From positions 1 to 21,613 of the IMG/VR virus record IMGVR_UViG_3300025138_008090: DNA of 21,613 bases; one strand, given 5' to 3'. The DNA is from a virus. Under the pieces are notes generated by a model. The model saw nothing but the letters and a program-made list of their open reading frames with translations, searched no databases and was not told the origin of the DNA. The stretch's first letter is position 1. Each line of letters starts with the position of its first letter. The translations under genes were made by a program, and so were the position numbers. This document shows, one piece after another, positions 1,789-18,297 of the stretch.

Positions 1789-3120
1789 CTACACCTTCTT
1801 TAATTTAGGTAATTTTATTTTTGGAGCCTCTATCTCGTCAACTTTATTCAACTTCGGTAACTCCAATTGTATTTCTTCAGCAAACTCAGGAACATACTTG
1901 TCAAGTAAATTACCAAACTGCCTAGTCATCTCATCCAAAGAAAATTTTATCTTATTATAAGCAGTTAATTTCTTAGCACCAAGTGTATATTTTCTATAAT
2001 TCTTATATACATCTTTCATCTTAATAGATGCTTCTTGGTAGTTAACTGTAAACCATTTCATAGTATCCACATGAAAGTTATCTGGAAAAGAACCTTTTGG
2101 AACATCTGATAACGCTCCACCAAGTAAAACAGCATTTGGTTTTTTCAAGAAATCGGTATGACCACTCCAATCAGGAGCTATAACTGGTTTTCCACTTAAT
2201 GATGCTTCGAGTAATGGTCTACCAAAACCTTCACCATGTGTTAGTGATATGTGAGCTTTTACTTTAGGATGATTGTATAATTCATTAATTTCCTCATCCA
2301 TAAAGTCACCATGCATTAAATATATGTTTGGTAAATCTCCACTAACTGTAGCCTTGACTTCGTTAATTTTATTTAACATTGCTTCCCTATCCAATACAGA
2401 ATATCCTGCTCCACTTGTTTTCATAATCAAACCTGGTTTCTGTTTCAGATTCTTAAAGGTTTCACAGAATACCTTGATTAACATACCAGTATCTTTTCTG
2501 TCATTACCAAGTCCACCTTGTAACCAATGACCTACGTATAAAAAGTTAAATTTCTCTTCTACCTTATCCATCTCTTCTAAAAGACTTTTTGAAAACTCTT
2601 TAGTTGTTTTGTAAATTTTGGTATCTGCACCTTCAAATAAAACTTCTATTGGTTTTTCACAAGCCAACACACCAGTTTTTTCTTTTGTTCTATCATCCTG
2701 TATATCAAATTTGATAGTTTCTAATGTGTGCTTTACAAAGTTAGCTGGAACTATGTTCAAATCCATTTTGTTTACACCTTGTAACCACTCTGGATGACAC
2801 AACGTAGTTTCTAAACCAGCTGTAATACCTATGTTATACTTCCCAAACGTTTGAAACTCGGTTGGTATTACGATATGTATATGTAATTCTGGTTGTTTTG
2901 GTAAATTAGGTTCTGCTAATAACCTATCGATTATCATTTTATCATTTGGATCGTCCGTATGTAATGCATTCATTGGTGTATTACCCCACCTAACAGGCCA
3001 TATTTTTACATCATACTTATCTAATTTAATTAAAGCTCTACATATATCTCTACTATGTGCTCCATAACCACTTCTTGTTCCTACTGGTGCTGTAACCAAA
3101 CATACTGGTTTATAACTCAT
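1789..3120 (-). CDS. Group 1 (GT4-like) glycosyltransferase, GT-B fold
   Basis: This 443-residue protein has the two-domain layout of GT-B retaining glycosyltransferases. The N-terminal acceptor domain opens with VCLVTAPVGTRSGYGAHSRD (6-25), containing the glycine-rich turn. The C-terminal donor domain starts near FNFLYVGHW (191-199) and carries the nucleotide-sugar signature HGEGFGRPLLEASLSGKPVI (295-314), with the EX7E pair at E297 and E305. The last 40 residues are Lys/Pro/Glu-rich and probably a tail. The ATG at 3120 has AGAGG about 6 bases upstream. It follows a 41-residue microprotein and a second GT4 gene. Donor and acceptor sugars are unknown. Confidence 0.9.
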   Translation of the reverse strand: MSYKPVCLVTAPVGTRSGYGAHSRDICRALIKLDKYDVKIWPVRWGNTPMNALHTDDPNDKMIIDRLLAEPNLPKQPELHIHIVIPTEFQTFGKYNIGITAGLETTLCHPEWLQGVNKMDLNIVPANFVKHTLETIKFDIQDDRTKEKTGVLACEKPIEVLFEGADTKIYKTTKEFSKSLLEEMDKVEEKFNFLYVGHWLQGGLGNDRKDTGMLIKVFCETFKNLKQKPGLIMKTSGAGYSVLDREAMLNKINEVKATVSGDLPNIYLMHGDFMDEEINELYNHPKVKAHISLTHGEGFGRPLLEASLSGKPVIAPDWSGHTDFLKKPNAVLLGGALSDVPKGSFPDNFHVDTMKWFTVNYQEASIKMKDVYKNYRKYTLGAKKLTAYNKIKFSLDEMTRQFGNLLDKYVPEFAEEIQLELPKLNKVDEIEAPKIKLPKLKKV

Positions 3121-3130
3121 ATTCTACCTC

Positions 3131-3256
3131 TTATTTAAATGGTGATTCTAAAAACTTTGTCAAACCCTTGACAACCTTTGTCCAAAAAATATCTTCCGAA
3201 CCTCTAAAGTTACCAACTATATTCTTTCTTCTTACAGTTTTCTGTACTCTTGGCAT
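3131..3256 (-). CDS. Basic 41-residue microprotein between two glycosyltransferases
   Basis: A short open frame fills the gap between the two GT4 genes. It begins MPRVQKTVRRKNIVGNFRGS and ends at TAA (3131-3133). A textbook Shine-Dalgarno AGGAGG lies five bases before the ATG and overlaps the TAG stop of the upstream glycosyltransferase (3266-3268). That is among the strongest ribosome binding sites in the window, which argues the frame is translated. The N-terminal half is strongly basic; the C-terminal half is amphipathic (DIFWTKVVKGLTKFLESPFK). It may bind nucleic acid or a membrane surface, or be an accessory peptide for the flanking enzymes. No homologue is recognised. Confidence 0.65.
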   Translation of the reverse strand: MPRVQKTVRRKNIVGNFRGSEDIFWTKVVKGLTKFLESPFK

Positions 3257-3265
3257 ATTATCCTC

Positions 3266-4657
3266 CTATGCTTTAAACATTGTATAACGTTTTCTTGGTT
3301 TCCATTTATCAAATGCAGTATTCATGTGGTCTATAAAATTTTGTGACATAGCTGTAGAGGACATCATAGCATCATCACTCATAACAAACTCATGACCTAA
3401 CTTACCACACTCTTCTCTTTTATCTTTGTCCATATCATACCACTCTTTGATAGCATCAGCAACATCATCAAACCTACATCTATCATCAAATATATATGGT
3501 GTTGGTATTGAACCTGCTAACGACCTATTGGATGGCCATACTGGTTTACACCATTCACCCCAAGTCAAATCAGGATGGTCTTTCCATTTTCTATCATCGT
3601 GAAATGATTGTATCTCTGTATACTGTTCATGAGTAACGTGTTTACCGTTTAGTTTAAATCCAACTTGGTCTTGTAACCCACCTGTAACATTTACAATTAT
3701 CGGTGTACCGGCCATCAGAGACTCACAAGTTCCCAATCCAAATCCCTCATTGGAAGCCATATTGAGTGTAACATCAGCTATATTATATAAACAATTTAAT
3801 TGATTTGGTTCTACTTTTTTATCACTAAAATATACCCTATAATCTGGAGCTAATACATTAGCAACAACTGGTAAATCTGTACCATTATTATCTGTTGGTT
3901 GTGTGTGCATTATCAATGCACATTTATCAGCTTCCTCTTTAGGTAACATATCACAGAATGTTTTAAATGCCAAGACAACATCACCAGGATTTTTACGGCG
4001 AATATTTCTGTTATTGTAAAAAACTACGAAGTCAACTTTATTATCTATCTCAAGTTGTCTCCTCATTTCTGTCATTAATTTTTGGTCATCGTCAAATGGG
4101 GATACGGGTTTGAAAAAAGTATCACTCACACCATGTGGTAAATAGGTACAATCCCAATCTGTACGAGGTTTTTGTTTTGCAACTTCCTTTACAATAGCTA
4201 CAGTTTGTTTTGATATGTTCATTATCAAATCAGAACACTCATAAAAGAACTCATTGTACTGTGGTGCTGGCCAATCATCCCAAATGTTGTAATAGAATAT
4301 AGGAATATTTTGTCTAATCTCATGTTCCATTTCATACAACCAACCCCAAAATCTTGGATCAGTATAATGAAGTATAGCGTCAGGTTTTTCCCTCGACATT
4401 ATTTCTCTAACTACTTCTTGATTACCATATCCGTCTATAGGATATATTGTCAATTTTGCATCTTCTACACCTGTCTGTTCAGCACAAACAGCGTCCATAT
4501 TAACAACCTTACCAGTCTCAGGATGTTTTATAGCACCACCCAGCTGAACCCAATCATACTGTTTCAACGTTCCCATTACGAACTCTTTTGACATTGTGCC
4601 AACACCAGATGACATTCTTAAATCATCTGATAATAGTAAAATCTTTTTCTTAGCCAT
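3266..4657 (-). CDS. Group 1 (GT4-like) glycosyltransferase, GT-B fold
   Basis: This 463-residue protein is a second GT-B enzyme. It opens with a strand and glycine-rich turn (ILLLSDDLRMSSGVGTMSKE, 6-25). The donor half begins near VDFVVFYNNRNIRRKNPGD (208-226) and has the GT4 signature NEGFGLGTCESLMAGTPIIV (303-322), with the EX7E glutamates at E304 and E312. The ATG at 4657 has AGAGGG six bases upstream, and those bases directly follow the stop of the preceding microprotein. It differs clearly from the downstream 443-residue enzyme (different start, no Lys-rich tail), so the pair are not a recent duplication. Together they suggest two sequential sugar additions, on an unknown acceptor. Confidence 0.9.
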   Translation of the reverse strand: MAKKKILLLSDDLRMSSGVGTMSKEFVMGTLKQYDWVQLGGAIKHPETGKVVNMDAVCAEQTGVEDAKLTIYPIDGYGNQEVVREIMSREKPDAILHYTDPRFWGWLYEMEHEIRQNIPIFYYNIWDDWPAPQYNEFFYECSDLIMNISKQTVAIVKEVAKQKPRTDWDCTYLPHGVSDTFFKPVSPFDDDQKLMTEMRRQLEIDNKVDFVVFYNNRNIRRKNPGDVVLAFKTFCDMLPKEEADKCALIMHTQPTDNNGTDLPVVANVLAPDYRVYFSDKKVEPNQLNCLYNIADVTLNMASNEGFGLGTCESLMAGTPIIVNVTGGLQDQVGFKLNGKHVTHEQYTEIQSFHDDRKWKDHPDLTWGEWCKPVWPSNRSLAGSIPTPYIFDDRCRFDDVADAIKEWYDMDKDKREECGKLGHEFVMSDDAMMSSTAMSQNFIDHMNTAFDKWKPRKRYTMFKA

Positions 4658-5043: not shown

Positions 5044-5073
5044 TTAATATATACATATATAAATATATATTAA
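5044..5073. promoter_or_regulatory. Perfect 10-bp inverted repeat upstream of the RHH-like gene (candidate operator)
   Basis: ttaatatata at 5044-5053 and tatatattaa at 5064-5073 are exact reverse complements separated by 10 bases. The element occupies the whole gap between the SLOG gene stop and the ribosome binding site of the RHH-like gene. AT-only palindromes arise easily in AT-rich DNA, so the arm length and position are the main support. Its centre (5047-5061) shares a 15-base string with the leader of the sliding clamp gene. Confidence 0.4.
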
Positions 5074-5483
5074 TTAAGTATTTTAACCATTTTTTTTAAT
5101 TTTTCAGCGTATCCAATTGTATTCATAGTACCTCTTGATTCGACTCCATCTGGTATAAATGCAATTATTATATTACAGTACTCAGCTAACTGTTTATTTC
5201 TTTTAAAGTAATTAGTAATATAATATGGTTTATTATAATGATTAGCTGATAACTTACAATGCATATTGTGACTATAGTGTGATGGTGGAAACTCTACATA
5301 GTCCATATCAAATTCAAGAGCAATCTTCTTAGCATATCCATCAGCTCCCTCTTTCTGCCCACCACTAACTATTTCTACTTCATCATTATACTTTGTCTTT
5401 ATTTCAAATATTAAATCTTTTATCTTTTTTTTATCAGTATAACCTCTACTACCAACTATACCTATTTTAATCTTCGTAGTCAT
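5070..5483 (-). CDS. SLOG-superfamily (YspA/DUF2493-like) nucleotide-binding protein
   Basis: This 137-residue protein has the Rossmann-like layout of the SLOG superfamily. It shows an N-terminal strand and turn KIGIVGSRGYTD (6-17), a glycine motif SGGQKEGADGYAKKIALE (about 40-57), and a C-terminal IIAFIPDGVESRGTMNTIGY (about 106-125) resembling the family's phosphate-binding GT/E loop. SLOG proteins bind or process nucleotide-derived ligands, and many work in stress signalling or phage-host conflict; the ligand here is unknown. The ATG at 5483 overlaps the upstream gene by 17 bases, and an AAGG lies unusually close to it, so translation is probably coupled. Confidence 0.75.
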   Translation of the reverse strand: MTTKIKIGIVGSRGYTDKKKIKDLIFEIKTKYNDEVEIVSGGQKEGADGYAKKIALEFDMDYVEFPPSHYSHNMHCKLSANHYNKPYYITNYFKRNKQLAEYCNIIIAFIPDGVESRGTMNTIGYAEKLKKMVKILN

Positions 5484-10816: not shown

Positions 10817-13342
10817 TCAAAAAAATCTTTCCATTGTTTTGGTAGCATCAGTTGGTTCACCCCAACCAAGTGCTTCATAAAACATCATTATTTTTTTATG
10901 TAAAGTTTGTTTGTAAAGTTTTTCTGGATTAATAAATTGTTTGATAAATGATATAATTTCAGGTGGATCTTCATGTCCTTTATATCCTATAGTATCTAAC
11001 CCAAGTGGATTATTTTTTAGATACACCCATTTAATTTTTTCTCCATTATATATCGGTGTATATCGTCTTGATATTTTAAGGTGTTTTAACATATCATTAT
11101 AGAACAACGCACTCTTCACATGGATTGGTGTTCCTAACTTATATGCTTTAAATATAGCACCACCCTTAACCTTATATTTAGTGACCTTCTTAACACCTGT
11201 TGGATTAGCTATCTTATCAAAATCCATCAACTTCATACTGTTCTTAAAATTTAATACAAATTTATCCAACTGTTCTTTTGGTACATCCATCAGTATATCT
11301 TCTAACAACTTACTCAACATATCTCTCATAGCAGTTGGGAAACTTGACCTAACTGTATCTAAACCCTTTACCATCAGTTTATTTACTTTCTTACCATTGT
11401 CATTGATAATTTTTAAACCATATCTTTTCTTGGTAACAAATAAACCACTCTTAGCAATAACCTCTTGTTTAATATCAAAACGATGTTTGTCCAAGTTACA
11501 GAATTTCTTAGCAAAGTAATCATAACTATTATTAAGATACAACTGAACCTCATCAGCTATGTTTAAAATAGCCTTGGACATCTTATCCTCATCACTAATA
11601 TTAACACTTGGGAATCTTTTTTGAACCAATGGTGTAGCCGAGTAAAAAACAGAATCGGTATCAATATAAATACAATGGTCTTTATCATCACCTAATTCTT
11701 TATTGTAAAAGTTATTCGCTATCTTCTTTGTGAATTTAATAAGTGATTGACCTGTATAGGTTACAGCTTCTGCATTGTCCAAGTCATAGAATCTAAATAC
11801 TGGTAATCCCAATACGCCATATAAACTATTTAAAATAATTTTCTGTAGGTACTGTCTCCTATCAAAGTAATCTGATTGGTCTTTGTCACCTTCTTCATGA
11901 AATTTTCTTGATAGTTTTCTATACTCAACCCTTTCATCAAACCATTTTCTTAACAACGCTGGTAATAGTCCATCCTTATCTGTACGATACATTACACCAT
12001 TGGTAGCAACTCCAATGGAACGATTCTCTAAATAATCTTTTAACTCTGTATTTGTAAACCTACCTAATTCCTTTTCATTATTTGTTATGGTGTATGTTTT
12101 ATTTACACCTCTAATAAATTCTTCAGGATTCCAACCTTCCAATTTACCTATCTTCGTTTCTGGTGATATGTTTAATGACATAATACAAGATGGATACATG
12201 GAAGTAATATCCAAATCAAATACCCACTCGTGTTTACCTTTTTGTGGATCTTGAACATAAGCACCAGTAAATTTACCATCAGTTAGTTTATTTGGTCTTG
12301 GTGGTTTATTTGGTGCTATAATATTTTGTTTTTTCAAATAAGTTAGGATAGCACCCTCTAAGTATCGTGAACTCATAAAAACATCCTCATACGGTACATG
12401 ACCTAAGTGAGCAATACCCCTAGCAATCTCAATAAAATCTAACTTATCATCTAATTTTTTAACTAACTTTACATCTTGTAAGTTATATTCTACAAACTTA
12501 TCAATGTCATTGTCATATAAATCATTTAATGTTCCTTCATACTCAATCTTCTTTTCACCTACTTCAATACTTCCAATATTATCTAACCTATACGATGATT
12601 TCTCACTAAAAGTAAATTTTTTATATAAAATAAGATAATCCAATATACTAACACCAGCAATCTTGTATTTGCCTAAACCAAACTCAGTCCATTGTACATT
12701 CATAATCGGTGATAATAAACTAGCTACATTCTTACCAACTACATTACAAGCTCTATTATAAAGATATGGAACATCAAAAAACTCTACATTCCAACCTGTT
12801 AGTATTGTTGGTTTTATTTCCAAATACTTCTTAAAAAATGCATTTAATAAATCATACTCATCAGTAAAAGACTTTGTTATTTCATTACCGTTGGTCGATG
12901 TTTTAGTATCATCTAATTTTAATTTATTTGTAGTATCTAATACATAACAAAAGTATTCATCTGTTCTTGGATCGTTAAAACCTATAGCTGTGATTCGGTT
13001 CTCTGCTTTTTTTACATCAGGAAATCCTGTTGTAACTTCAACCTCAATGTCAAATATCATTGTGCGGTGACCAGTAGACACTTCATCTGAATCTGTATAG
13101 TTATCCACTAACACTCTTATTTCTGGATTAACATCTGACTCGAATAAGCCTGATTGGTCTTTCTCGTATTTGTTTATTCGTTTTAACCTATCACCATATA
13201 GTGATATGTAAGTTCCACTTTTATTTTTTATATAAGCATACTTTTTATAACGAAACGTTTGATGACCAAATTTGTCATCCCAAATATGCATTTTATTTAT
13301 TCGTCTATCGTAATATATATTTTGATATATAACTAACTCCAA
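10817..13342 (-). CDS. 43: Family B DNA polymerase with 3'-5' exonuclease, gp43-like
   Basis: This 841-residue enzyme is the replicative polymerase (T4 gp43 is 898). Counting from TTG 13342: Exo I FDIE (D98, E100); Exo II NVEFFDVPYL (D190); Exo III Y286 to D290; polymerase motif A DLDITSMYPS (376-385); motif B K501 with NSLYG (505-509); KKRYGLK (638-644); motif C YIDTDS (559-564). Both active sites look intact. The C-terminus ends ERFF, fitting a clamp-binding tail as in T4-type polymerases. No ATG lies near the N-terminus. The longest frame uses TTG at 13342, after an in-frame stop two codons upstream, and lacks a ribosome site. GGAG precedes an in-frame ATA at 13330 by six bases, so the real start may be ATA. 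A strong promoter lies just upstream. Confidence 0.96.
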   Translation of the reverse strand: MELVIYQNIYYDRRINKMHIWDDKFGHQTFRYKKYAYIKNKSGTYISLYGDRLKRINKYEKDQSGLFESDVNPEIRVLVDNYTDSDEVSTGHRTMIFDIEVEVTTGFPDVKKAENRITAIGFNDPRTDEYFCYVLDTTNKLKLDDTKTSTNGNEITKSFTDEYDLLNAFFKKYLEIKPTILTGWNVEFFDVPYLYNRACNVVGKNVASLLSPIMNVQWTEFGLGKYKIAGVSILDYLILYKKFTFSEKSSYRLDNIGSIEVGEKKIEYEGTLNDLYDNDIDKFVEYNLQDVKLVKKLDDKLDFIEIARGIAHLGHVPYEDVFMSSRYLEGAILTYLKKQNIIAPNKPPRPNKLTDGKFTGAYVQDPQKGKHEWVFDLDITSMYPSCIMSLNISPETKIGKLEGWNPEEFIRGVNKTYTITNNEKELGRFTNTELKDYLENRSIGVATNGVMYRTDKDGLLPALLRKWFDERVEYRKLSRKFHEEGDKDQSDYFDRRQYLQKIILNSLYGVLGLPVFRFYDLDNAEAVTYTGQSLIKFTKKIANNFYNKELGDDKDHCIYIDTDSVFYSATPLVQKRFPSVNISDEDKMSKAILNIADEVQLYLNNSYDYFAKKFCNLDKHRFDIKQEVIAKSGLFVTKKRYGLKIINDNGKKVNKLMVKGLDTVRSSFPTAMRDMLSKLLEDILMDVPKEQLDKFVLNFKNSMKLMDFDKIANPTGVKKVTKYKVKGGAIFKAYKLGTPIHVKSALFYNDMLKHLKISRRYTPIYNGEKIKWVYLKNNPLGLDTIGYKGHEDPPEIISFIKQFINPEKLYKQTLHKKIMMFYEALGWGEPTDATKTMERFF

Positions 13343-13379: not shown

Positions 13380-13409
13380 AATATACAACAAAAAACCTAT
13401 ACTTGTCAA
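13380..13409 (-). promoter_or_regulatory. Sigma70-like promoter for the polymerase/clamp/loader operon
   Basis: On the minus strand, a perfect -35 TTGACA (13409-13404) is followed after 18 bases by TATATT (13385-13380). The spacer ends TGTTG, and AAGGTAT follows the -10, as in the promoter at 7392-7421. The predicted start is near 13373, about 30 to 45 bases before the polymerase start. It lies just downstream of the receptor terminator, so transcription is re-initiated here. Confidence 0.75.
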
Positions 13410-13422
13410 GTACTTTTTTGAT

Positions 13423-13451
13423 AAAAAGGGGGATAATATTGCAATCCCCCC
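13423..13451 (-). terminator. Intrinsic (rho-independent) terminator of the TonB-dependent receptor gene
   Basis: On the minus strand, GGGGGAT pairs with ATCCCCC across a 9-base loop and is followed at once by TTTTT. The stem starts 11 bases after the TAA of the receptor gene. G+C-rich stems are very rare in this AT-rich window, and this is the only clear intrinsic terminator seen in it. Confidence 0.9.
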
Positions 13452-13461
13452 AAATTACCTT

Positions 13462-16200
13462 TTAGAAACTAACAGCAAGTCCTATGTTGTAGTGCCTTGG
13501 TGTTCCCAAGAATACTTCAGCATTATGAGCTAGGTGAAGTTTATCACCGTACCCATTGTACTTACTATTGTCAACTGCATCTTGGACATAAACGTCATCA
13601 AGAGCATTAAAAACATGACCACTAAGTGTCACATCATACCCACCAATTGCTGGTAGTTTGTATGAAAAGTGTAGGTCAAGTTTAGAATAGCCAGGAGCTT
13701 TCCAAACCTGTGTCCTATCAGCATCACCGTCAATCTCACGAGAATCAGGTGACCAATCAGCGTAGTTATCATCATACATTCTGTAAAGACCTTGTATGTT
13801 AAGTCCTTCGACTGGTTTAATGGTTAATCCACCAACATAAGCTGTCTGTGGCATATCACCAACCATAAGTTCGTTAAGAGCGTAAGTGTATTCAGTAGTA
13901 GTCTGACCGATAACTTGGTTATCGTCATTATACTCCATCTCTTGATAATCACCATCGGCATCACCATCAAACTCCCACTTACCTTTACTAAATGCTAAGT
14001 CTAAATCAACCATTTCGTGAAGAGCAACTTTCGTTTCAACTTCCCAACCTGTATGACTTTGGTTAACACCTTTCAAGTAGATAATATCCGTATCACCGGA
14101 ATCACCAGCACCTGTTTCAACAGATTTGGTAAGGTTTCTATCTTTCCATTGAGTATTATAAGAACTCAATTTAAGATCTACATTACCACTTGCATACTTA
14201 CCACCAAACTCGAAACTTGTAAATTTCTCGTTATCTGGATTAGTAGCTACAGTACCATCATAGGCAATCACATTGTCTAAGATAGGTGGTTTTTCAACAT
14301 ACCCACCATTTACAAATGCAGACATTCTATCATCGAGGTTATATACACCACCACCTTTCACTTGGAAAGTTGTGATAGCATCAGCCTCAACTACACTATT
14401 GTCTGTAGAGAAATGGTCTTTGTATGTATATCCGATAGTTGATATTCCACTCATACCATAAAGGTTGAACTTCTGAATATCATACTTACCTTGTACGAAT
14501 GCCCCAAACCAATCAACGGTAGTTTCGTTGTGATAAGCAATTATATCACCTAAACCAACTTTCTTACCATCAGGTGCATTATCGTCAGCAAAGTCTACAT
14601 AGTAGTCTCCACCAAGTAAGTCACGAACCTCACGAGCATGCTCTATTCCAGCAGTTCTCCAATCGATACCAATCTGAACTTCGAGTTCATCTGATACATC
14701 ATAGTTTAATTTAGAAATCAAACCATAAGTGTTTTGACGATTGATTGAGTTACGAAGAATACCATCTGAACGATTTTCAGTATCAGACCACGCTGAATCT
14801 ACATTAGCAGAGTTCTCAGCAATCTGACTATTCCAATCCCAAGTCCACGGTGAACTTGCATACCAAGCACTTCCTTCTACTGCAGGAAATCGGTTTACAC
14901 TACCATAGGTACCAGTACCACCACCAGAACCACCACTCCAATAAGCAACAGAACTTAGTCTAACTTGGTCATTTACATCATAAAAATGATTTATATTGAC
15001 AAGTGGTTTATGGAAAAAGTTCTCTCTTTCATTTAAAAAATCAGAACTAAACCTATCTGTAGTGCGGTCACCATACATATACCAATACTGTTGACCTGTG
15101 TATGAAGCATCAATTGGGGCAACATTCTGATTAAAGAATCTACCAGCCTCATGTTCAAACTTCTCACCAGCAACATAAGCTGAATCATTATATCCATCAA
15201 TACCACCAGCTAACTCTTGTGAGTAGGTAGCAATATTCTGTTTATATAGATTTTGTCCATGACGCTGTGGAGCACCAATTGCATATAGCTCAAATCTTTG
15301 GTCATCAGACACAGCATAAGAACCACCAACGTAGTAAGCCCATGCATCTGTCCAAGTTCCATCAATGAACCCATTACCAGTTTTACGAACAATCGTTCCA
15401 CTAAGTGCTAGTTTATCATTGATTAGACCTGAATTATAATTCAAAGTAGTTTTTAGGAATCCACCCTCACCTACTTCTTGTTTGAACTTACCACCCTTTT
15501 CTTGAGCAGCAGGATCTGTGATTATGTTCATAGTTCCACCAATTGATGGTGTAGCTAGATTAACAGCGGATAGACCTCGTTGCATCTGAATGGAAGATGT
15601 GGCATCACCAACACCATCCCAATTAGACCAATAAACCCATCCGTTCTCCATATCATTCTGGGGAACACCATTAATCATAACCGCAACATTTCGTTGGTTG
15701 AATCCACGAACATTGATACGAGCATCACCCGCACCACCACCTTGTTGAGTAGCATATACACTTGGCGTCATATTAAGTGCCATTGGAATGTCTTGTGAAC
15801 CAAGACGAACTTCCATTTCAGCCTTATCTATCGTAGTGTAAGCTACAGGTGTTTTTTCATCAGCTCTTGAAGCCAAAACTTCAATATCTGACATAGTGAG
15901 TGCATTAACTTCTAAAGTGAAATTAAGTGTACCCACGATATCACCCACCTTAACCGAATTGGTTATAGATGAATGCCCAATGTATGAAGCAGTTAATGTA
16001 TAATCGCCTTCAGCACCGACATCAATAGTGTATTTACCAGACTCATCTGTTACACCACCTTTATCCGTACCTTCGACTACAATATTAGCTCCAGTCAATG
16101 GTTTACCCTCACTATTAACAACTCCAACAATCGATTGTCCATAAATGAAAATCGGTGTCAAAAATGTTAATAACAAAGATGTTAGATTGCGTTTATTCAT
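13462..16200 (-). CDS. TonB-dependent outer-membrane receptor (carboxypeptidase-regulatory-like domain, plug, barrel)
   Basis: This 912-residue protein is a complete outer-membrane active-transport receptor. From ATG 16200: a signal peptide (MNKRNLTSLLLTFLTPIFIY, likely cleaved before Q22); a carboxypeptidase-regulatory-like domain (23-97) with GKPLTGANIVVEGTDKGGVT; a TonB-box-like MSDIEVLAS (103-111); a plug (about 114-230) with INVRGFNQRNVAVMINGVP and GGTMNIIT; then a barrel of about 680 residues rich in aromatics, ending PRHYNIGLAVSF with the terminal Phe used for outer-membrane assembly. The frame extends to 16236, but ATG 16200 has GAGGAG seven bases upstream and gives a proper signal peptide. 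Base composition looks richer in G+C than the flanking genes (sampled lines of 35 to 48 percent against 23 to 38). The domain set is typical of Bacteroidota and relatives. Substrate unknown; being in a phage it is probably host-derived. Confidence 0.93.
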   Translation of the reverse strand: MNKRNLTSLLLTFLTPIFIYGQSIVGVVNSEGKPLTGANIVVEGTDKGGVTDESGKYTIDVGAEGDYTLTASYIGHSSITNSVKVGDIVGTLNFTLEVNALTMSDIEVLASRADEKTPVAYTTIDKAEMEVRLGSQDIPMALNMTPSVYATQQGGGAGDARINVRGFNQRNVAVMINGVPQNDMENGWVYWSNWDGVGDATSSIQMQRGLSAVNLATPSIGGTMNIITDPAAQEKGGKFKQEVGEGGFLKTTLNYNSGLINDKLALSGTIVRKTGNGFIDGTWTDAWAYYVGGSYAVSDDQRFELYAIGAPQRHGQNLYKQNIATYSQELAGGIDGYNDSAYVAGEKFEHEAGRFFNQNVAPIDASYTGQQYWYMYGDRTTDRFSSDFLNERENFFHKPLVNINHFYDVNDQVRLSSVAYWSGGSGGGTGTYGSVNRFPAVEGSAWYASSPWTWDWNSQIAENSANVDSAWSDTENRSDGILRNSINRQNTYGLISKLNYDVSDELEVQIGIDWRTAGIEHAREVRDLLGGDYYVDFADDNAPDGKKVGLGDIIAYHNETTVDWFGAFVQGKYDIQKFNLYGMSGISTIGYTYKDHFSTDNSVVEADAITTFQVKGGGVYNLDDRMSAFVNGGYVEKPPILDNVIAYDGTVATNPDNEKFTSFEFGGKYASGNVDLKLSSYNTQWKDRNLTKSVETGAGDSGDTDIIYLKGVNQSHTGWEVETKVALHEMVDLDLAFSKGKWEFDGDADGDYQEMEYNDDNQVIGQTTTEYTYALNELMVGDMPQTAYVGGLTIKPVEGLNIQGLYRMYDDNYADWSPDSREIDGDADRTQVWKAPGYSKLDLHFSYKLPAIGGYDVTLSGHVFNALDDVYVQDAVDNSKYNGYGDKLHLAHNAEVFLGTPRHYNIGLAVSF

Positions 16201-16229
16201 AAACGTTCTCCTCTTTTTGTTATTGTTAA

Positions 16230-16263
16230 GACGCATTTTTCCACAGGTGCGTCGTCTGCCTGT
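16230..16263 (-). promoter_or_regulatory. Potential H-type pseudoknot in the receptor mRNA leader
   Basis: In the minus-strand RNA, ACAGG (16263-16259) can pair with CCTGT (16247-16243), and GACGCA (16253-16248) with TGCGTC (16235-16230). The two helices interleave: loop CAGAC, no bases between helices, then the A-rich loop GGAAAAA. This is the topology of an H-type pseudoknot, or two mutually exclusive hairpins. It lies 17 bases before the GAGGAG ribosome site. It could be a translational operator or small riboswitch; the ligand is unknown, and short stems can occur by chance. Confidence 0.4.
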
Positions 16264-16281: not shown

Positions 16282-16310
16282 ATTTTAATTTGCATAATCT
16301 TGGTCGTCAT
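16282..16310 (-). promoter_or_regulatory. Weak candidate promoter for the receptor gene
   Basis: ATGACG (16310-16305) and TAAAAT (16287-16282) are spaced by 17 bases on the minus strand, matching 4 and 5 of 6 sigma70 consensus positions. The -10 overlaps the reductase stop codon. If used, it would put the pseudoknot in the receptor's own leader. The match is modest and may be chance; read-through from the reductase is the alternative. Confidence 0.25.
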
Positions 16311-18294
16311 TATCACCAGTCATTGGTACTATTTCACAAGAATCATTATTACAAAATTTATCTATTTCTGCCTCTTCATTCTTAATTACGCCAAAAGATA
16401 ACTTACCAAGTTTCTTAACTTGTCTATTATATTCTTTCTCATCAATTGCTTCATATGGCATTTGTTTATATGCTCCTAATTCGTGTCTTGGTAATAAACT
16501 AATACCCTTTAAGTGATATTGATAATAATTTAAAGTTGGTGCAATTTGGTCTGCTTCTGTTTCTGGATTAAATGTAACCGTACAACTAACTTGGTTGTCC
16601 GCCCAATGTCGTTGTAGAAAAGCGGCTAAACTGAATTGTTCCCAAATCGAAAGTTCAGCCGCAGTTCTAATCCCCTCACCGACATCTACCGGCACCTCTA
16701 CTACCATCGTTGTATCTTCTGAACCAAAGGCTGGTTCTAATTTATAATTAGCTTTCTTTAATGGTTCTAATAATTCTGAATGCTTGGATAACCTTACTCT
16801 CCTAATGTAAAAACGACTCTCAGGATAGTGTAATCCGGGAGTCGCTCCTGCTAGTAGTGAAACTGTTCCTGATGGTTTTACTGATGTTGTCTTAATTGAC
16901 TTTGGTACAGCAAACCAATCTGAATACATTTTATCCCATTCTTGTATAACATCATAACCAGCATTTAACCAATCTTTTAATTCACCTAAACCACGATTAG
17001 TAATAAACTGAGCAACACCACTTACCGAACATCCAATTCTTCTGTTTCTCAACATAACTCGATTGGTATCACTCCAATGTGTTTTACCTAATGTTACTGA
17101 TTTAGCATACAAATAAGCATACTTTAATGTACGAGCATAATCCTCAAAGTCATCGTGGTTACTTGGAAATGTTTCTACCAAGCAACATAACTCGTAACTC
17201 TCCAATGATTGTTCCAAACAAGGATTACCACCAGCAACTCTATGGTCTTTATTATCTCCACCATTTTTCATACGAGAATACTTTCTCATATTTTCTAACC
17301 ATGCAAATCCAGGCTCACCATTATCCACAATTCGTTTGGCAGCTTCTGTATAATCCATACCCAATTCTGCGAATATACTATTATTACTTGTCCATCCATA
17401 TTGCTCCCTATGTGGGTTAACTTTATAATTTTTTAAATCTAAATATTCTTCATCATCTGGTTCACCGAACACAATCTCCGCAGTACGTCTTACATTCCCT
17501 GCTACGACACATTTACCAATAAGGTTCATTATGTCTACAATAGTTGTTACGGTGATTGGCTCTCCACTATTTTTCTCTAATACTTTTCTGATTTCTTCAT
17601 GTACTTCTAAAAGAGGTTCGTGACCACTTGAAACTCCACCAAAACCTGCAATTGTTTCACCCGCTGGTCTGACTTCTGTATAATCAAATTCAATTGGTGA
17701 ATGTCCATGAAAATAACTTTCTAGTAGTAGTTTAAGAGATTCAACCCAACCCTCACGAGTATCTGGTATCACATATACATCTTCATCCTTATCACGATTA
17801 ATACCTTTAACTATAATCTCACCTGCACCCTTACAATCGAATCCTACACCCACTCCTAACATACTTGCATCCATCAAAAATGTAAATGGTTTAGCATAAT
17901 CTTCTTTAATTGTTGATGTTGATACAAATGCACAGTTGTTGAGGGCGGCGTACAAACCTTTTTCTTCAGTTATGGCTGTTCCCATAGCCCAAAGACCTCG
18001 GCCGGGTGGCAAAAACTTCATGTTGAAGATACGCTCATACATCTCTTGTGCAGACCTTTGAGCTTGCCACGGATTCCACCCCAATTGATGTTGGTCAATC
18101 CAATTCTTTTGCATAGAGTAAGTTCCCTCTACGACTCGTTGTACGGTTTCCCACCAACGTTCATTCTTTCCATCTTCCTTAATTCTTGAATAGGTTCTCA
18201 TATAAACTAACTCACCCAATCCATTAAAACCAAATGGTGGTTTTTTTCTTTTGTATTTATTTATAAACTTTTCCGATAACGTAAATTTTTCCAT
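16285..18294 (-). CDS. nrdJ: Adenosylcobalamin-dependent class II ribonucleoside-triphosphate reductase
   Basis: This 669-residue enzyme makes deoxynucleotides from ribonucleotides using a radical generated by coenzyme B12. Counting from ATG 18294: FLPPGRGLWAMGT (94-106); C121; the active-site loop NPCLE with N357, C359 and E361; C370; SVKPSGT (471-477); and the C-terminal redox pair C648/C653. Cysteine spacings match the monomeric Lactobacillus leichmannii enzyme (C119, C408, C419, C731/C736): 11 residues between the two central ones and 5 in the C-terminal pair. The stretch between C121 and C359 is about 50 residues shorter, perhaps trimming the allosteric insertion. The longest frame starts at TTG 18297; ATG 18294 with AAGGA six bases upstream is preferred. 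No second subunit is expected for this class. Confidence 0.95.
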   Translation of the reverse strand: MEKFTLSEKFINKYKRKKPPFGFNGLGELVYMRTYSRIKEDGKNERWWETVQRVVEGTYSMQKNWIDQHQLGWNPWQAQRSAQEMYERIFNMKFLPPGRGLWAMGTAITEEKGLYAALNNCAFVSTSTIKEDYAKPFTFLMDASMLGVGVGFDCKGAGEIIVKGINRDKDEDVYVIPDTREGWVESLKLLLESYFHGHSPIEFDYTEVRPAGETIAGFGGVSSGHEPLLEVHEEIRKVLEKNSGEPITVTTIVDIMNLIGKCVVAGNVRRTAEIVFGEPDDEEYLDLKNYKVNPHREQYGWTSNNSIFAELGMDYTEAAKRIVDNGEPGFAWLENMRKYSRMKNGGDNKDHRVAGGNPCLEQSLESYELCCLVETFPSNHDDFEDYARTLKYAYLYAKSVTLGKTHWSDTNRVMLRNRRIGCSVSGVAQFITNRGLGELKDWLNAGYDVIQEWDKMYSDWFAVPKSIKTTSVKPSGTVSLLAGATPGLHYPESRFYIRRVRLSKHSELLEPLKKANYKLEPAFGSEDTTMVVEVPVDVGEGIRTAAELSIWEQFSLAAFLQRHWADNQVSCTVTFNPETEADQIAPTLNYYQYHLKGISLLPRHELGAYKQMPYEAIDEKEYNRQVKKLGKLSFGVIKNEEAEIDKFCNNDSCEIVPMTGDNDDQDYAN

Positions 18295-18297
18295 CAA

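Follow-up and report, generated by a model that had tools for sequence, protein, structure and literature searches.

A TonB-dependent receptor with its own pseudoknot leader as cargo of T4-like ocean phages

The window analysed here, i.e. the whole 21,613-nt stretch of viral DNA (IMG/VR record IMGVR_UViG_3300025138_008090, positions 1 to 21,613), encodes a complete TonB-dependent outer-membrane receptor (TBDR) between a ribonucleotide reductase gene and a DNA polymerase gene. The locus is laid out as follows:

10817 to 13342, minus strand: T4-like DNA polymerase B (PolB), the downstream border of the insertion site
13380 to 13409, minus strand: promoter of sigma-70-like type for the PolB unit (TTGACA-18-TATATT), which empty sites have as well (TTGACTTGTATAGG...TATATTC)
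13423 to 13451, minus strand: intrinsic terminator GGGGGGATTGCAATATTATCCCCC-TTTTT, which closes the TBDR cassette
13462 to 16200, minus strand: TBDR, 912 aa, with signal peptide, CarboxypepD_reg-like domain, TonB box (E107-R112), plug, barrel and terminal Phe
16208 to 16212, minus strand: Shine-Dalgarno sequence AGGAG, 7 nt ahead of ATG 16200, its conservation judged by eye
16230 to 16263, minus strand: 34-nt H-type pseudoknot with stem 1 ACAGG/CCTGT, stem 2 GACGCA/TGCGTC, loop 1 CAGAC and loop 3 GGAAAAA
16264 to 16267, minus strand: conserved GCGG flank of the pseudoknot
16285 to 18297, minus strand: nrdJ, adenosylcobalamin-dependent class II ribonucleotide reductase, the upstream border of the insertion site

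According to the ORF listing and its translation, the TBDR reading frame is intact from ATG 16200 to the TAA at 13464-13462; it is open already from an in-frame ATG further upstream, at 16236. Because ATG 16200 is preceded by the Shine-Dalgarno sequence and the frame ends at 13464-13462, the gene boundaries given by an earlier, sequence-only reading of this DNA are right. The same reading had described the receptor as complete, and open reading frame, Pfam domains, structure model and terminal Phe agree on this. It had further credited the gene with its own ribosome site and terminator, and these hold as well: a terminator-type hairpin follows the gene in 128 of 146 phage copies, compared to 2.4% of shuffles.

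The protein begins with a hydrophobic N-terminus ending in ...YGQ, followed by the CarboxypepD_reg-like domain (Pfam; residues 26-106) and the plug (residues 115-223; PF07715, 54 bits against a cut-off of 23.9). A structure model based on 119 homologues, both phage and cellular, reached a mean pLDDT of 86.4—phage copies alone had given 50—and displays the plug and a barrel of 22 strands by our own count. Its best Foldseek matches in the PDB are all TonB-dependent transporters, with FhuA, FecA and PqqU at TM-scores of about 0.75-0.80 (by target length) and with PQQ, siderophore and cobalamin receptors listed alike. By sequence, solved structures align to the N-terminal domain, the plug and a short C-terminal stretch only. 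Among the phage copies, the TonB box EVLASRA is invariant (147/147) and the C-terminal Phe is found in 146 of 147; the remaining contig breaks off within the gene. Membership in the SusC/RagA-type glycan importers was rejected, as the protein scores 53 bits on TIGR04056, whose curated cut-off is 368. No SusD partner gene was found among the window genes searched by family. Scanning the TBDR against defence families returned no match.

Family searches place a class II ribonucleotide reductase (nrdJ), a DnaB-like helicase, a 5′-3′ exonuclease and UvsX/RecA upstream of the TBDR and PolB, a clamp, a methyltransferase and a clamp loader downstream of it, which by these assignments identifies the neighbourhood as a T4-like replication gene set. 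Compared with cultured phages, PolB reaches 46% to that of Microcystis phage Mel-JY01. Elsewhere on the minus strand, the window encodes three glycosyltransferases (226-894, 1789-3120 and 3266-4657) and a SLOG-family (YAcAr/DprA-like) protein that weakly matches ShosA in PADLOC (5070-5483).

TBDRs are cellular genes, and all TBDR matches in the sequenced phages of INPHARED stay below 30% identity, as would be expected if the assembly were chimeric or the contig bacterial—the two conditions under which the sequence-only reading would have had to be abandoned. However, the order nrdJ-TBDR-PolB is repeated in viral contigs from separate metagenomes, and the chimera is already refuted by this replication. 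Speaking against a bacterial contig, a 130-kb relative (the contig of L004) carries the TBDR along with genes for a T4-like Gp23 capsid protein and a tail sheath. Moreover, the TBDR matches the phage genes in G+C at codon position 3 (GC3), and cellular homologues yielded no pseudoknot. Either artefact is thus extremely unlikely. A scan of IMG/VR confirmed a relative of the TBDR in 328 viral stretches, the best 80 of which were retained (72-89% identity, nearly all full length).

With identities of 61-69%, the nearest cellular relatives all belong to Marinimicrobia or unnamed members of the FCB group; those with a name are proteins of Ca. Neomarinimicrobiota/Fidelibacterota (68%, 65% and 61% identity). 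These receptors, which likewise carry a CarboxypepD_reg-like domain, share the domain order and the TonB box EVLASR with the phage copies, whereas the latter stand apart by their pseudoknot leader, the codon usage of the phage and a tighter conservation of extracellular loops. Of 199 Marinimicrobia genomes covered by the search, 113 had a homologue, usually with a single match. Two trees group the phage TBDRs inside those of Fidelibacterota (Marinimicrobia) with 99-100% SH-aLRT support, a placement that identifies Ca. Marinimicrobia (SAR406) as the apparent source of the gene. Nested among the phage copies is one cellular gene, L082:986-3733, and a tree in which the phage rows were constrained to a clade without it was rejected (p-AU 4e-5); its long end branch calls for caution regarding this placement. 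L082 is a Marinimicrobia TBDR gene that is followed in tandem by a second one and flanked also by a DegT-family aminotransferase gene, and it comes without the pseudoknot. Its nesting, together with the rejection of a phage-only clade, is probably due to gene flow back to a host or to more than one acquisition. The T4-like phages bearing the TBDR probably infect SAR406, as judged mainly from the TBDR phylogeny and additionally from Bacteroidota-like signal peptides in the 130-kb phage (by eye), which would link a phage lineage to the phylum of its host, an abundant and uncultured one.

The sequence-only reading had also noted a raised G+C content. This part stands, with 0.390 for the TBDR versus 0.30-0.37 in neighbouring genes, but the recent arrival that it implied does not: at 0.249, GC3 falls within the range of the neighbours (0.225-0.263), and the G+C contrast therefore reflects amino-acid composition. 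GC3 is fully ameliorated, pointing to a long residence in the phage. A median pairwise dN/dS of about 0.15 indicates purifying selection on the TBDR, with the plug as its most constrained region (0.08, as compared to 0.12 in strands, 0.14 in loops and 0.31 in the N-terminal domain). At a strand identity of 0.65-0.75, the extracellular loops, which were assigned from strand order in the structure model, are 0.69-0.72 identical between phage copies and 0.55-0.60 between cellular ones. On this model, phage copies keep the ligand-facing surface tighter than their bacterial homologues, which favours a conserved ligand rather than a diversifying surface target; recombination, a narrow host range or a narrow sample could account for part of the loop conservation.

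Between nrdJ and the TBDR, phage copies share a leader with the consensus GCGG-ACAGG-CAGNY-GRCRCA-CCTGT-NNAAAAA-TGYGYC, which forms a pseudoknot whose 3′ end lies 24-36 nt ahead of the TBDR start codon. The pseudoknot precedes the TBDR in all 79 loci having upstream sequence, being perfect in 70 of them and showing one shortened stem in the other nine. Across 47 distinct leader sequences, 98.6% of cells are paired, and five of the 11 pairs, involving both stems, have changed on both sides (25 cells versus a shuffled mean of 5.2)—counts that are inflated by relatedness and hence stand for several independent changes, not for 25. When the pairing partners are slid as a control, the covariation signal collapses. 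G-U pairs occur on the sense strand and therefore support an RNA. Nested MFE folding gave no signal (z -0.18), as is expected of a method that leaves pseudoknots unmodelled. Supported by this covariation, the element is best described as a predicted structured leader RNA.

This RNA is closely tied to the phage receptor gene. Searched with a covariance model of stem 2, each of 51 phage sources gives one strong match, as does the entire 130-kb contig, but there is no convincing match in 31 cellular loci and none above noise in 13 Marinimicrobia genomes. With no pseudoknot upstream of the Marinimicrobia homologues or in these genomes, inheritance of the element from the host was rejected. Among the matches listed in a pattern scan of IMG/VR, at least 116 contigs were analysed, yielding one chance match and 115 true motifs, each followed by the start of a TBDR or by what remains of one; nrdJ was found upstream by sequence match in 108 of these 116. 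Small H-type pseudoknots such as preQ1-I-like and other riboswitches or the T4 gene 32 leader pseudoknot share with it the short format, an A-rich third loop and the location in a 5′ leader. Unlike them, the pseudoknot of the window lies upstream of a TBDR and has no match in Rfam, for which reason a known riboswitch was rejected. The ribosome site lies outside the pseudoknot, and stem-1 variants show no covariation with it (by eye), which lends no support to a switch in which stem 1 acts on this site. The upstream sequence TTCACATAC is not enriched in the window and was rejected as a phage promoter. The leader may act in mRNA stability, as a protein operator or as a ligand sensor. One specific version, a phage-specific sensor RNA—either a new riboswitch class or an operator for a phage protein—that gates synthesis of a nutrient importer, is rather speculative and on present evidence unlikely; if true, the virus would sense its nutrient or replication state and open the host's outer-membrane nutrient door on demand.

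How the TBDR behaves as cargo can be read from 80 PolB relatives, 34 of which have it adjacent, while in 35 nrdJ lies no more than 1.5 kb ahead of PolB and the TBDR is lacking, one shows another arrangement and 10 are too short upstream. Inspected empty sites mostly comprise ~85 nt after nrdJ and retain the PolB promoter. Presence and absence change at least five times on the PolB tree, whose deepest lineages have the gene. Since about half of the related phages lack it, the TBDR is not essential. It thus has two properties of an auxiliary gene, i.e. it is a host-derived gene inside a phage genome, as seen from the trees and the 130-kb relative, and it is dispensable, being missing from close relatives. 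Accordance of the nested phage clade, the T4-like structural genes on the long relative and the clean empty sites lends strong support to the earlier proposal of host-derived cargo. Relative to the window, contig L358 is 62% identical in PolB, 87% in TBDR and 86% in nrdJ, a sign of module exchange that seems to have occurred between phage lineages. Two further contigs, L263 (from 5122, plus strand) and L276 (from 7887, plus strand), have kept the pseudoknot, the ribosome site and about a dozen codons. The rest of the TBDR is replaced by a 483-aa gene before PolB (no Pfam or PHROG match in L263), and we read these remnants as the scar of a TBDR deletion. Other genes use the same junction, with or without a TBDR alongside: glutamine synthetase (L332:2633-3667 and L040:8939-9925) and an AhpC/TSA gene (L049:9389-9958). 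By gene content, the nrdJ-polB junction is a cargo hotspot, with the TBDR as one of its cargoes. The sequence-only reading had included neither the empty sites and this hotspot nor the pseudoknot leader and the host phylum.

Phage-encoded TBDRs have barely been noticed so far. Our literature search found one report, on the marine megaphage Mar_Mega_1, which encodes a SusC-like TBDR and whose authors also propose uptake during infection (PMC9723777). As an auxiliary gene, a phage TBDR is therefore of a kind already known, and the Mar_Mega_1 receptor and PHROG 5687 are its closest known counterparts, the former resembling the receptor of the window as a TBDR of marine phage origin. Predicted viral structures (BFVD) contained a single full-length match, A0A8D9FQQ5, a SusC-like TBDR of an uncultured marine phage that, judging from its name, is presumably the Mar_Mega_1 protein. 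However, Mar_Mega_1 is an unrelated megaphage, its TBDR is just 13% identical to that of the window by structural alignment, and the family described here is widespread in T4-like phages, has a Marinimicrobia origin and possesses its own pseudoknot and insertion site. These four features, i.e. T4-like family, origin, insertion site and pseudoknot, appear to be new within the literature searched.

What the receptor does during infection can be approached from its conserved parts. We consider it reasonably probable, from sequence conservation, that the TBDR is a transport-competent importer which relies on the TonB of the host and supplies the infected cell. The ancestor of a T4-like phage lineage would have captured the gene from the Ca. 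Marinimicrobia (SAR406) bacterium that it infected. Inserted between nrdJ and the polB promoter, the gene would have formed a cassette complete in itself, made up of pseudoknot, ribosome site, TBDR and terminator. Presumably expressed alongside the replication genes during infection, the receptor would reach the outer membrane through the Sec and BAM machinery of the host, obtain its energy from host TonB-ExbBD and import a scarce nutrient for phage replication, and the pseudoknot may tune stability or translation of its mRNA. No ExbD was found in 12 long relatives; host energy coupling is therefore needed, and phage-encoded coupling was rejected on these contigs.

Uptake was one of two roles guessed at by the sequence-only reading, and it fits better than the other, according to which the phage TBDR stands in place of or beside the host receptor. 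Phages that attach to the host TBDR, be they competitors or siblings, would then fail to adsorb or be lost on debris. TBDRs are indeed classical phage receptors, and phage T5 offers a precedent for phages acting on this part of host outer-membrane biology: its Llp blocks the T5 receptor FhuA, itself a TBDR, although Llp is a small lipoprotein, whereas the phage of the window encodes a complete receptor (PMC9586334). The frequency of homologues among Marinimicrobia genomes, usually at one match each, could make this receptor a common surface target, and its patchy presence in phages fits an arms race. Yet a mask needs no TonB box, and EVLASR is invariant in 147 of 147 copies; constraint is strongest in the plug, and the extracellular loops of phage copies are conserved rather than diversified. 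Superinfection exclusion or receptor replacement, the main rival of the importer, is hence rather unlikely. Import of cobalamin for the B12-dependent NrdJ encoded next door would be a specific form of uptake: the nrdJ product scores above the TIGR02505 cut-off, the gene lies just upstream in most of the pattern-retrieved contigs listed (108/116), and BtuB is among the structural matches. But siderophore receptors ranked at least as high as BtuB, the TBDR is often missing from phages with the same nrdJ (35 empty sites), and searches of the window and of seven cellular loci found no cobalamin riboswitch, a common though not universal control of BtuB. The same junction also accommodates glutamine synthetase, AhpC or an unrelated protein, so the adjacency to nrdJ can come from the hotspot. 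The argument from adjacency is weakened accordingly, and cobalamin as the ligand is quite improbable.

Returning to the importer, a TBDR with its own RNA leader suggests phage use and control of a nutrient door in the course of infection, which implies that the uptake step at the outer membrane is itself a target of phage manipulation. Overall, the family is widespread, ancient and selectively maintained in uncultured T4-like ocean phages. It adds a short structured RNA that is open to direct probing, and natural pairs of phages with and without the TBDR make its benefit testable.

The 130-kb phage encodes further proteins of interest, all on the minus strand of L391. One is a second secreted, possibly outer-membrane protein with signal peptide and terminal Phe but no family match (3126-4427). 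Another is a thioredoxin-like protein with a Bacteroidota-like signal peptide and a Pfam score just below the cut-off (1372-1746), and the third combines Popeye-like (POPDC) and cyclic-nucleotide-binding domains (728-1372), which is unusual in a phage.
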